A stretch of DNA of 10,703 nucleotides, from assembly GCA_947302065.1 (NCBI GenBank), contig CAMYUO010000026.1, positions 1 through 10,703 of the forward strand, given 5' to 3'. Position 1 is the stretch's first letter. The number at the start of each line of letters is the position of its first letter. Positions 5,823 through 10,368 of the stretch are shown here, in pieces. The notes below the pieces were generated by a model. The model worked only from the letters and a program-made list of their open reading frames with translations, was not told the origin of the DNA and did no database searches. The position numbers were made by a program, and so were the translations under genes. The DNA is from an uncultured Clostridia bacterium (GTDB lineage: Bacteria > Bacillota > Clostridia > Oscillospirales > Ruminococcaceae).

Positions 5823-5921
5823 CATATCATTTGCACAGTTATGTGTAAAACGAACGCTGCGTGGGCATAATAAGCAATGCGGAAAGTGATTTCCGAGGAA
5901 ATACGAAAGGAGACAAAATCT

Positions 5922-6158
5922 ATGAAAAAGATAAAGCCCGTTTACTCGCCGCAGGATATACCTCTCGGGCTGTCGATGGCGATGGCACAGAACGTTCTGG
6001 CTTTTGACGTGTTTGCAAAGCTGTCGCCCGTGCAGAAACAGCAGCTGATAAAAGACAGTGCAAACGCCCATTCTGCGCAGGAGATGCAGCAGCTGGTGGA
6101 CAGCATGGCGAGCGCAGGTACGCTGCCCGGCGCACCCCATATCAACCAATTCTTGTGA
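5922..6158 (+). CDS. Small protein of unknown function (78 residues)
   Basis: I do not recognise this gene. The ATG at 5922 has AAAGGAGA about 8 nt upstream, a strong ribosome binding site. An in-frame ATG at 5877 has none, so the shorter start is chosen. The product is soluble-looking, with no signal peptide or membrane segment. It begins MKKIKPVYSPQDIPLGLSMA, then appears helical, with LSPVQKQQLIKDSANAHSAQ (residues 34-53) followed by EMQQLVDSM, and ends with a Gly/Pro-rich tail. It is transcribed divergently from rsmA and lies upstream of the purE promoter. I saw no terminator after it, so its transcript might enter the purE leader. No good promoter was found in 5823-5921; a CATAAT at 5866-5871 lacks a convincing -35. 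Confidence 0.75.
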   Translation: MKKIKPVYSPQDIPLGLSMAMAQNVLAFDVFAKLSPVQKQQLIKDSANAHSAQEMQQLVDSMASAGTLPGAPHINQFL

Positions 6159-6513: not shown

Positions 6514-7011
6514 ATGAAAAAAGTTGCTGTAATCATGGGTTCGGACAGCGATCTGCCGGTCGTTAAAAAGGCTATCGCAGAGCTGAAAAACTACGGTGTG
6601 CCTTATGAGTGCCACGTTATGAGCGCTCACAGAACGCCCGCACTCGCAAGCGAGTTCGCTGCAAATGCAAAAGCAAACGGATTCGGCGTTATCATCTGTG
6701 CCGCAGGTATGGCTGCGCACCTTGCAGGTGTTATCGCAGGTCACACAACGCTGCCTGTTATCGGTATCCCCTGCAAATCCGCCGCACTTGACGGAATGGA
6801 CGCTCTGCTGGCTACCGTTATGATGCCGTCGGGCATCCCTGTTGCAACTGTCGCTATCGACGGTGCAAAGAACGCTGCTATCCTCGCAGTTCAGATGCTG
6901 GCTCTCTCGGATGAGGGACTTGCAGAAAAGCTCGAGGCTGAAAAGCAGAACATGATAAGCGGCGTAAAGGCTAAAGATGCTGCTCTTCAGGAGACACTGA
7001 AGGATATCTAA
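6514..7011 (+). CDS. purE: N5-carboxyaminoimidazole ribonucleotide mutase / AIR carboxylase, catalytic PurE
   Basis: A 165-residue PurE, the usual length. Motifs: MGSDSDLP (8-15), SAHRTP (37-42, His39) and [10 protein letters not shown] (63-72, His69), followed by [10 protein letters not shown] and [13 protein letters not shown]. These are the class I signatures and carry the two active-site histidines. Class I PurE normally converts N5-CAIR, made by PurK, to CAIR. Here purK is not next to purE, so the N5-CAIR source is elsewhere or the enzyme works with AIR and CO2 directly. The usual GGAAHLPG reads GMAAHLAG. The start at 6514 is chosen because GGAGG (6501-6505) is 8 nt upstream; an ATG at 6508 is only 2 nt from it. 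purF follows 29 bp downstream. Expression is probably set by the leader terminator. Confidence 0.95.
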
Positions 7012-7040: not shown

Positions 7041-8477
7041 ATGGGTGGTTTTTTCGGAGCAGTTTCAGCTAATGACTGCATTCAGGACGTATTTTTCGGA
7101 ACGGATTATCATTCACATCTGGGAACAAGAAGAGGCGGTATGACATCATACTCCGCTGAGCTCGGTTTCCAGAGAAATATCCACAGCATAGAGAATTCTC
7201 CGTTTCGTACCAAGTTTGAAAAAGATGTTGAGGCTATGCGAGGCAAGGTGTGTGTCGGCTGTATCAGCGATACCGACCCGCAGCCTATCATGGTGCGCTC
7301 AAAGCTCGGGCTGTACGCTATATGCTCGATAGGTGTGATACATAATGCCGAGGCTCTCTCAAACGAGCTTCTGCACAGCGGCTGTGCGAACTTTGAAACT
7401 ATGAGCAGCGGCTCGATAAACTCGGCAGGACTTATCGGTGCGCTCATCGCACAGAAGGATAATTTCGTTGACGGCATCAGATATGCGCAGAGCAAGATAG
7501 AGGGAACGATGTCCCTGGTCATCATGCTCAAGGATTCCGTTATCTGCGCAAGGGACAAAAACGGCAAGCTGCCGATAGTCATAGGCAAGCGCTCGGACGG
7601 CTTCTGCTTCTCGTTCGAGGACTTCGCTTACATGAAGCTCGGCTATACGACATGCCACGAGATGAAAGCAGGCGAGATACTCAAGCTGACAAAAGACGGC
7701 TATGAGATACTTGCCGAGGGTACAGACGAAATGAGTATCTGTACATTTTTATGGACTTATTACGGTTACCCCAACGCAACCTACGAAGGCAAGAACGTTG
7801 AGGTCATGAGAATAAGAAACGGAATGATAATGGCGGAGAACGACATCAAAAACGGCAGGCTGCCCGATGTTGACTACGTCTGCGGCGTTCCTGATTCGGG
7901 CACTCCGCATGCGATAGGCTATGCCAACCGCAGCGGTATCCCGTTTGCAAGACCGTTCATCAAGTACACTCCGACCTGGCCGAGAAGCTTTATGCCGACC
8001 AACCAGTCGATGAGAAACAAGGTCGCAAAGATGAAGCTGATACCCGTTCACGACCTGATCAAAGGCAAAAAGCTGCTGTTTGTCGACGACAGTATCGTAA
8101 GAGGAACACAGATGAGAGAAACTGTTGAGTTCCTTTATGAGAACGGCGCAAAGGAAGTTCACATGCGCTCTGCATGTCCGCCGATAATGTACGGCTGCAA
8201 GTACCTCAATTTCTCACGCAGCAATTCCGAGCTCGAGCTTATCGCAAGACAGATAATCGACGAGCACGAGGGCGTTGAGGGCGTTAAATACATCAGAGAG
8301 TACAGCGATTCCAACACAGAGCGAGGCAGGCTGCTCAGAGATGAGATTTGCCGCAGACTTGAGCTGACATCGCTTGAATTCCAGACACTCGAAGGCACTG
8401 TCAAGGCAGTTGAGCTTGAAGGCTGCAAGCTGTGCTCATACTGCTGGAACGGAAAAGAAAATGCAGCAGCTAAGTAA
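7041..8477 (+). CDS. purF: Amidophosphoribosyltransferase-like protein (PurF) lacking the glutaminase nucleophile
   Basis: A 478-residue PurF homologue with an N-terminal Ntn-glutaminase-like domain (about 1-225) and a C-terminal phosphoribosyltransferase domain. PurF makes phosphoribosylamine from PRPP and glutamine-derived ammonia, the first purine step. The PRPP loop LFVDDSIVRGTQ (346-357) and GVPDSGTPHAIGYA (282-295) are intact. C234, C386, C462 and C465 fit the Fe-S ligand positions of B. subtilis PurF, plus C468. The start is firm (AGGTGA 7 nt upstream), yet the protein begins MGGFFG where canonical forms expose CGxxG, so Cys1 is Gly. The GHxRYST segment reads GCISDTD and the NGNLxN loop reads IGVIHN, so the glutamine-binding Arg and Asn are also gone. 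It probably uses free ammonia or a separate glutaminase. It sits between purE and purM, the normal operon place. Confidence 0.9.
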   Translation: MGGFFGAVSANDCIQDVFFGTDYHSHLGTRRGGMTSYSAELGFQRNIHSIENSPFRTKFEKDVEAMRGKVCVGCISDTDPQPIMVRSKLGLYAICSIGVIHNAEALSNELLHSGCANFETMSSGSINSAGLIGALIAQKDNFVDGIRYAQSKIEGTMSLVIMLKDSVICARDKNGKLPIVIGKRSDGFCFSFEDFAYMKLGYTTCHEMKAGEILKLTKDGYEILAEGTDEMSICTFLWTYYGYPNATYEGKNVEVMRIRNGMIMAENDIKNGRLPDVDYVCGVPDSGTPHAIGYANRSGIPFARPFIKYTPTWPRSFMPTNQSMRNKVAKMKLIPVHDLIKGKKLLFVDDSIVRGTQMRETVEFLYENGAKEVHMRSACPPIMYGCKYLNFSRSNSELELIARQIIDEHEGVEGVKYIREYSDSNTERGRLLRDEICRRLELTSLEFQTLEGTVKAVELEGCKLCSYCWNGKENAAAK

Positions 8478-8510: not shown

Positions 8511-9557
8511 ATGAACACTAACAGCTATTCAAACAGCTACAAGGACGCAGGAGTTGACGTAACAGCAGGATACAAGGCAGTAGAGCTGATGAAGCAGTAC
8601 GTTGCGAGAACTGTAACAAAGGGAGTTCTCGACGGCATCGGCGGATTCGGCGGTCTGTTCGAGCTTGATGTTACAGACATCAAAAAGCCTGTTCTCGTTT
8701 CGGGCACAGACGGCGTCGGCACAAAGATCAAGATCGCTTTCCTGCTCGACAAGCATGACACGGTCGGCATCGACTGCGTTGCAATGTGCGTAAACGACAT
8801 AATCTGCTGCGGTGCAAAGCCGCAGTTCTTCCTTGATTACATCGCCTGCGGCAAGAACTATCCCGAGAAGATAGCTCAGATCGTATCGGGCGTTGCAGAG
8901 GGCTGCGTTCAGGCAGGCTGTGCGCTCATCGGCGGTGAGACTGCCGAGCATCCGGGTCTTATGCCTGATGAGGATTATGACCTTGCAGGTTTCTCTGTCG
9001 GCGTTGTTGACAAGGACAAGATCATCGACCCGAGCAAGCAGAAAGAGGGCGACGTTATGATCGCCATCAAGTCAAGCGGCGTTCACTCTAACGGTTTCAG
9101 CCTCGTAAGAAAGGTGTTCGACGTGAGCGAACAGAGTCTTGCAAAGACTTATGACGAGCTCGGCGGAAAGACACTCGGCGAAGTTCTGCTGACACCGACA
9201 AGAATTTATGTAAAGGCAATAATGAGCCTGCTCGATGCTGTCAACGTAAAGAGCATCTCTCACATCACAGGCGGCGGATTCTATGAGAACATCCCACGTT
9301 CTCTGCCAAAGGGACTTTCTGCAAAGATCTCAAGAAAAGACGTTCAGGTACTGCCTATCTTCGATCTTATCGCCAAGACAGGAAATATCCCCGAGAGAGA
9401 TATGTTCAACACCTTCAACATGGGCGTCGGCATGACGGTAGTTGTTGATAAGGCGGACGCTGACAAGGCTGTTGAGGCTATCAAGGCAGCAGGCGAAGAC
9501 GCTTATATCCTCGGCGAGCTTATCGCAGGCGATTACGGCGTAGTGATAACCGAGTAA
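8511..9557 (+). CDS. purM: Phosphoribosylformylglycinamidine cyclo-ligase (AIR synthetase)
   Basis: A 348-residue PurM of typical length. It closes formylglycinamidine ribonucleotide to aminoimidazole ribonucleotide with ATP. Motifs of the family run through the protein: [15 protein letters not shown] (10-24), [13 protein letters not shown] (64-76), [11 protein letters not shown] (92-102), [11 protein letters not shown] (139-149), [13 protein letters not shown] (188-200), [13 protein letters not shown] (251-263) and FNMGVGM (302-308). No key element is missing. AAAGGA lies 8 nt before the ATG, and purF ends 33 bp upstream, so the two are co-transcribed. The AIR it makes is the direct precursor of the PurE step encoded at the front of the operon. 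Its stop codon lies within the left arm of a 9-bp inverted repeat that brackets the following spacer. Confidence 0.98.
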
Positions 9558-9744: not shown

Positions 9745-10368
9745 ATGAAAAATATAGTTGTGCTCGTTTCGGGCGGCGGAACGAACCTGCAGGCGCTTAT
9801 CGACTCGCAGGCAAGAGGCGAGATAAAAGGCGGCAGGATAACCTGCGTCATCTCGTCAAAAGACGGCGTTTTCGCACTTGAAAGAGCAAAGAAAGCGGAT
9901 ATACCGACTGTGGTCATCCCGAGGAAAGAATATACTGACAGCAAGAGCTACAGCGAGGCTATCCTTGCAGAGCTGGACAGGCAGAAAGCCGACCTCATCG
10001 TGCTTGCAGGCTTTATGACCATTCTTGACGAGTGCGTGACCAAGGCTTATGATTACAGGATAATCAACGTTCACCCGGCACTTATCCCGAGCTTCTGCGG
10101 TGAGGGATTCTACGGACTTAAAGTTCACGAAAAGGCGCTTGAATACGGCGTGAAGGTATCGGGTGCTACGATACATTTCGTAAACGAGAAGGCTGATGCA
10201 GGTGCGATAATCCTGCAGGGCGTTGTAAACGTCGAGAATGATGACACGCCTGAGATACTCCAGCGCAGGATAATGGAAAACGTTGAATGGAAGCTGCTGC
10301 CGAAAGCTGTTTCGCTTTTCTGCGAGGACAGGATAGAAATAAAAGACGGCAAAGCTTATGTGAAATAA
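9745..10368 (+). CDS. purN: Phosphoribosylglycinamide formyltransferase (GART)
   Basis: A 207-residue PurN, the family's usual length. It transfers a formyl group from 10-formyltetrahydrofolate to glycinamide ribonucleotide. Visible signatures: the nucleotide-binding VLVSGGGTNLQALID (6-20); LAGFMTIL (87-94); INVHPALIPSF (107-117) with catalytic Asn108 and His110; and GATIHFVNEKADAGAIILQ (140-158) with the catalytic Asp151. The segment after the catalytic pair reads CGEGFYGLKVH rather than the PGLxAH type of E. coli; this appears to be a lineage variant and does not affect the catalytic residues. GAGG (9733-9736) is 8 nt before the ATG. It is the last recognised pur gene in the window and is separated from purM by the structured 187-bp spacer. 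The GNAT gene begins 25 bp after it with no terminator between. Confidence 0.97.
   Translation: MKNIVVLVSGGGTNLQALIDSQARGEIKGGRITCVISSKDGVFALERAKKADIPTVVIPRKEYTDSKSYSEAILAELDRQKADLIVLAGFMTILDECVTKAYDYRIINVHPALIPSFCGEGFYGLKVHEKALEYGVKVSGATIHFVNEKADAGAIILQGVVNVENDDTPEILQRRIMENVEWKLLPKAVSLFCEDRIEIKDGKAYVK

Follow-up and report, generated by a model that had tools for sequence, protein, structure and literature searches.

A PurF homologue with a lost glutaminase site, widespread in gut anaerobes, is a probable ammonia-dependent PRPP aminotransferase

In textbooks, the step that commits a cell to purine synthesis draws on glutamine, and AsnA and the ammonia-dependent NAD synthetase are known as ammonia-only counterparts of amidotransferases. 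Those enzymes share with the family described here the logic of replacing glutamine by ammonia, although they have other folds or lack the glutaminase domain, whereas PurF2 (our working name for the PurF homologue encoded at positions 7041-8477 of the window and for its relatives) keeps the whole relic domain. Exchange of the catalytic Cys1 for Ala or Ser in Escherichia coli PurF is described as eliminating glutamine-dependent activity while ammonia-dependent activity is kept (PMC3261824, citing Mei and Zalkin); this is a single laboratory change, whereas PurF2 is a family that arose in nature and has a remodelled pocket. PPAT is described as using ambient NH3, and a proposal cited alongside has external NH3 entering via the glutamine site (PMC12017579). 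The nearest precedent is crenarchaeal PurF', a PurF paralogue without Cys1 that lies near purine genes, carries Ala or Val at the Cys1 position in many cases, accompanies PurF in each Crenarchaeon studied and was proposed to be an ammonia-dependent PRPP aminotransferase (PMC3261824). Likened by description, PurF2 shares the missing Cys1, the location and the hypothesis, but it is bacterial, has lost more residues and can be the sole PurF found. No title or abstract start describing a bacterial PurF2 variant was found in a literature search whose coverage leaves out most subscription journals. This analysis adds a loss that is uniform across a broad family, a clade of bacterial members and, chiefly, genomes with PurF2 as the only PurF found.

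The window, that is, the whole 10,703-nt stretch of DNA analysed, belongs to a contig of an uncultured Clostridia bacterium (CAMYUO010000026.1, assembly GCA_947302065.1) in which purF2 lies among other pur genes (Table 1). The initial annotation had pointed to positions 7041-7360, a span limited to the N-terminal part of purF2. Against TIGR01134, the PurF equivalog profile, the window protein scored 187 bits, below the curated cut-off of 350 bits. No riboswitch or other known RNA matched within the window at gathering score. A 93-aa ORF upstream of purE (5877-6158, forward strand) has no Pfam match, and the minus strand between 230 and 5773, divergent from the pur operon, holds ordinary genes (glucan branching enzyme-like, SpoIIE-type and rRNA adenine dimethylase-like).

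Table 1. Coordinates of purF2, its diagnostic sites and the neighbouring pur genes in the window.
Feature	Position	Strand	Basis and conservation
purE	6514..7011	+	TIGR01162 above cut-off; start picked by eye from the ribosome-binding site (ORF list: 6481)
purF2 (478 aa, starts MGGFFG), coding for a PurF homologue whose glutaminase site is dead	7041..8477	+	ORF
Gly2, in place of catalytic Cys1	7044..7046	+	structure alignment; among 172 rows, Gly (163), Ser (8) or Lys (1, a fragment) at residue 2
DYHSHLGTRRGGM, in place of LQHRGQESAG	7104..7142	+	R26 (HRGQ motif) replaced by Leu in 180/180
GCISDTD, in place of GHVRYST	7257..7277	+	Ser in 174, Asn in 5 and Cys in 1 at the R73 position; Asp at Y74 in 180/180
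IGVIHN, in place of NGNL (oxyanion loop)	7329..7346	+	N101 replaced by Val, Ile or Thr in 180/180
Fe-S-type ligand Cys234	7740..7742	+	Cys in 180/180
PRTase flexible loop, new KYTPTWxRSF form	7962..8036	+	K326, Y329, R332, K349 in 180/180; model weak here (311-320 mean pLDDT 58)
PRPP-binding loop DDSIVRGT (window: VDDSIVRGT)	8085..8108	+	alignment
Fe-S-type ligand Cys386	8196..8198	+	Cys in 180/180
Fe-S-type ligands Cys465 and Cys468	8433..8444	+	Cys in 180/180 at both
purM	8511..9557	+	TIGR00878 above cut-off
purN	9745..10368	+	TIGR00639 above cut-off

To score conservation, we aligned 180 distinct full-length PurF2 sequences, the window protein included (186 rows less two fragments, with four duplicates merged), alongside 34 canonical rows, two of which are the same gene of genome G247 and one E. 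coli PurF. Compared with canonical PurF of the B. subtilis type (EC 2.4.2.14, with Fe-S cysteines), Cys1, R26, R73, N101 and D127 are absent from all 180, the D127 column of the TSD motif holding Asp in none of them. The replacements of GHxRYST (GCISD, with a deletion, in the window protein) and of NGNLxN by IGVIHN had been correctly read by the initial annotation, to whose list the alignment adds the change of R26 to Leu in the HRGQ motif and the disappearance of D127. When an AlphaFold model was superposed on the B. subtilis (1ao0) and E. coli (1ecb) structures, the aligned range opened with residue 2 of the model against residue 1 of the solved chains, so that Gly2 sits at Cys1; the sequence alignment program had put Met1 in that column, the structural alignment being the better register. 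No Cys occurs within residues 1-4 in any of 172 PurF2 rows. We ruled out a Cys exposed through an upstream start or a propeptide, since the ORF begins at the first ATG, GTG or TTG past the upstream in-frame stop and no such start can therefore expose one; the N-terminus MGGFFG, without an exposed Cys, is thus supported by both ORF start and structure. Cys13 was also discarded as a hidden nucleophile because only 128 of the 180 sequences have Cys at that place.

On the PRTase side, K326, Y329, R332, K349, D367, S368, V370, R371 and G372 are kept in every PurF2 of the alignment and D366 in 179. The four Fe-S ligand cysteines typical of B. subtilis-type PurF are, by sequence, equally universal, which extends to all 180 sequences the earlier statement that the PRPP loop and these cysteines remain, and the predicted model displays the two-domain Ntn plus type I PRTase fold of the PurF superfamily. 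Differences from canonical PurF are found in this half as well: T374 is changed to Gln and the K-N-R-Y loop to KYTPTW in all sequences, and there is an extra segment near 403-435. Furthermore, a new conserved set (D22, H26, L27 and D77 in 180/180; Y23 and S25 in 179) has arisen. These newly conserved features occupy the places of the lost residues, a pattern that indicates selection for a second function rather than decay. Glutaminase losses and PRTase and Cys retention, both in 180/180, are compatible with neither chance nor decay, and a decayed gene copy was rejected on these grounds; this supports the proposal, made from the window protein alone, that the coordinated loss marks a selected variant.

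A PurF2 protein search returned at least 8000 matches, possibly including canonical PurF, and a genome scan at least 597 matching stretches. A Bacteroides-like probe retrieved actual Bacteroides proteins with the MGGFFG start, which shows that gut anaerobes of other groups do have it, as the initial annotation had suggested; records of a plasmid collection add PurF2 in Parabacteroides, Phocaeicola and Peptoclostridium acidaminophilum. The suspicion that the variant is widespread is confirmed by these occurrences together with those in our order sample, 84 of whose 148 genomes carry it. In a tree of 24 PurF2 and 33 canonical PurF proteins, a branch with support 100 separates the PurF2 proteins from the canonical ones. 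The source names of PurF2 proteins read 'amidophosphoribosyltransferase', the 'amido' part of which is probably wrong.

Judged from its sequence and genomic setting, PurF2 is likely an ammonia-dependent PRPP aminotransferase, since a dead glutaminase, an intact PRTase and solitary occurrence in the pathway make ammonia use the simplest reading. The enzyme would convert PRPP and NH3 into phosphoribosylamine and PPi at the intact C-terminal PRTase site, without glutamine hydrolysis. The former glutaminase domain, kept folded and strongly conserved, would probably act as a port for external ammonia and a channel to the PRTase site, and probably also supplies oligomer contacts. The ammonia would be free rather than passed on by a glutaminase encoded elsewhere.

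The order sample divides into the 84 genomes with PurF2 (the window's own included), 59 with only canonical-range matches and five without any PurF-type match, which are perhaps purine auxotrophs. Among the 84, a further PurF-type match exists in 52 (51 and the window's own), and in 32 PurF2 stands alone, which makes ammonia use the best inference. These 32 assemblies are each at least 95% complete, though not closed. In none was the TIGR01134 cut-off passed, and the listed matches other than PurF2 span only the glutaminase part of the profile. PurD, the sole other pathway gene checked genome-wide in this set, scored above cut-off in 31 of the 32 and is missing along with PurF1 in one; PurF2 is thus the sole PurF found in 31 organisms with PurD, with the reservation that the assemblies are non-closed. 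Fourteen further genomes, reached via named loci, include three without a match above the PurF cut-off, all in assemblies that come without a completeness figure: Evtepia gabavorous KLE1738, which is recorded as a strain and carries no metagenome-assembly mark, and whose only PurF found is a PurF2 inside a pur cluster (locus L066 of genome G394), and the MAGs of an Intestinimonas sp. and of Candidatus Alectryocaccobium stercorigallinarum. Many assemblies are probably metagenomic, so that a PurF1 may have been missed in single cases. On the PurF2 tree, the PurF2-only and two-gene states are separated by at least 18 changes of unpolarised direction, at least 13 of them forced by well-supported (starred) branches, a pattern as for exchangeable enzymes.

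What counts against the ammonia reading is that 51 genomes and the window's own keep both genes, and PurF2 could therefore have another role there. The initial annotation had allowed for a second, Cys1-containing purF in the window genome, and one was indeed found, so that PurF2 is not the sole PurF of this 70% complete assembly: the copy at C25:3628-4971 scored 508.5 bits, has Cys1, HRGQ, GHVRYST, NGNL and TSD, and adjoins an AsnB-like gene. Canonical copies retrieved from 15 of the 51 two-gene genomes all start with Cys, and in a phylum sample of 249 genomes PurF2 appeared in the window's own and 14 others, every one with a further PurF-type match. PurF2 could accordingly partner canonical PurF in a non-catalytic or regulatory capacity, for instance in a mixed tetramer sensing PRPP or nucleotides, a role with which the occasional adjacency of the two genes (F2-F1 or F1-F2) and the constant company of PurF' and PurF in the Crenarchaea studied (PMC3261824) would agree. 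We nevertheless regard this as unlikely, given that 32 near-complete genomes, all but one of which have PurD, carry PurF2 alone, and that a non-catalytic subunit need not keep PRTase residues that are invariant in 180/180.

Another pur gene was present in the fetched region at 58 of 83 PurF2 loci (24/32 PurF2-only, 34/51 two-gene); none was seen at the other 25, some of whose regions end at contig ends, and this counts against the ammonia reading, as do the carB and pepT contexts described below. These neighbourhoods bear on a less probable alternative, in which PurF2 would be fed by a separate docking glutaminase, as PurL is by PurQ. Retention of a GATase-type fold in the model and the presence of further amidotransferase-type proteins in these genomes speak for such an arrangement, but a scan of the PurF2 neighbourhoods of the 32 PurF2-only genomes, 192 non-pur ORFs in all, turned up neither the class I elbow nor the class II CG-start motif, both of which serine-type glutaminases lack. 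Nor does any family of non-pur neighbours appear at more than six of the 83 loci. The same scan of PurF2 neighbourhoods in two-gene genomes yielded three of 311 ORFs, one TrpG/PabA-like and two chance-like. Thus, of the two ammonia sources originally suggested, free ammonia stands as the best inference, whereas a dedicated glutaminase nearby did not materialise. The glutaminase loss is, on sequence evidence, specific to PurF2: PurL at PurF2 loci has intact glutaminase Cys and His motifs (GxCNGFQ and HGEG) in 22/22, and in the window genome two proteins assigned by eye as AsnB-like and GlmS-like begin with MCG. In another set of regions, mostly ending inside PurL, there was one long PurL (939 aa, itself cut) without the motif. 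The GlmS-like frame of the window genome (L003:1498-3329) is interrupted by an in-frame stop in the assembly.

Two contexts emerged away from the pur genes; one reading of 38 orphan-type loci covered the neighbours of all but five, where the simple ORF picker had dropped PurF2. The first is carB, a gene whose product alone can use ammonia, placed 31-91 bases ahead of PurF2 at five loci (L253, L254, L255, L259 and L261) in four f18 genomes, with the pair occurring twice in G194. Each of these four genomes has a single carA above cut-off, beside a different carB, to which the solitary type is 47-48% identical. In a family sample of five genomes, the solitary carB type and PurF2 occur together in four and are both absent from one. 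In the phylum sample, the carB type (at least 1500 bits; best three or fewer candidates per genome scored, counted by hand) was found in 9 of 15 PurF2 genomes, the window's own included, versus 22 of 234 others (Fisher p 7e-6, uncorrected for relatedness). Given these 22 genomes with the carB type but no PurF2, and four with the converse (the window genome, G065, G247 and G021), the association is partial and only suggestive. The second context is pepT, adjacent to PurF2 in all three Bacteroidota records and in Peptoclostridium (L246, L247, L248 and L274), as purF2-pepT-gcvT in Bacteroides, Parabacteroides (annotation) and Phocaeicola (tblastn) and as purF2-pepT in Peptoclostridium; this may be an operon that connects PurF2 to the breakdown of peptides and glycine. 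Two Bacteroidota 'plasmid' records (L247 and L248) bear eno, nusB or ribosomal protein genes and may therefore be chromosome pieces closed in error. Both contexts fit the ammonia theme.

The pepT linkage also invites the idea that PurF2 joins PRPP to another amine, either an amino acid or a small amine, or makes another phosphoribosyl compound in connection with peptide or amino-acid catabolism, and the altered yet invariant PRTase loop would suit it, since the universal T374 to Gln change and KYTPTW could mean a different nucleophile, a point that also counts against the ammonia reading. We deem this alternative quite improbable, because in 24 of the 32 PurF2-only genomes PurF2 occupies the position within the pur genes where purF is usually found, pepT occurs at none of 176 PurF2 loci in Clostridia, and peptide and glycine breakdown also simply give ammonia. 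That PurF2 is an artefact, whether a decayed copy or the remnant of incomplete assemblies in which a true PurF1 was missed, is very improbable, for although many genomes are probably metagenome assemblies and the window's own is incomplete, conservation over 180 sequences already contradicts decay, and PurF1 is missing in 32/32 versus PurD in 1/32 of the same genomes, a comparison with PurD and not with chance alone, the 32 having been chosen for a single PurF-type match.

Returning to ammonia-dependent PRPP amination, a broader reading is plausible but tentative. Gut anaerobes may have split the first purine step into a glutamine enzyme, PurF1, and an ammonia enzyme, PurF2 (compare GS/GOGAT with GDH), with PurF2 repeatedly as the sole enzyme; the old glutaminase pocket, with its near-invariant D-Y-x-S-H-L and an Asp at former glutamine-ligand places, would now be an ammonium-binding gate, and in Bacteroidota and one Lachnospirales-like lineage PurF2 would be accompanied by genes that yield ammonia (pepT-gcvT) or use it (solitary carB). 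There are thus bacteria, the gut strain E. gabavorous KLE1738 among them, whose sole PurF found is not expected to use glutamine. If confirmed, purine supply in the gut and rumen would be linked directly to ambient ammonia, metabolic models listing glutamine as the donor would change, and the question on PurF' left open in 2011 would become testable in a cultured bacterium.

The usual gene order at the pur-linked loci, with labels checked on one member each, is purE-(purC)-PurF2-(PurF1)-purM-purN-IMP cyclohydrolase-AICAR transformylase-purD-purL. PurH is split at L081:13823-15007 and L103:8353-9072 into a stand-alone AICAR transformylase and an IMP cyclohydrolase-like protein of the PF07826 type, which is usually linked to archaea.
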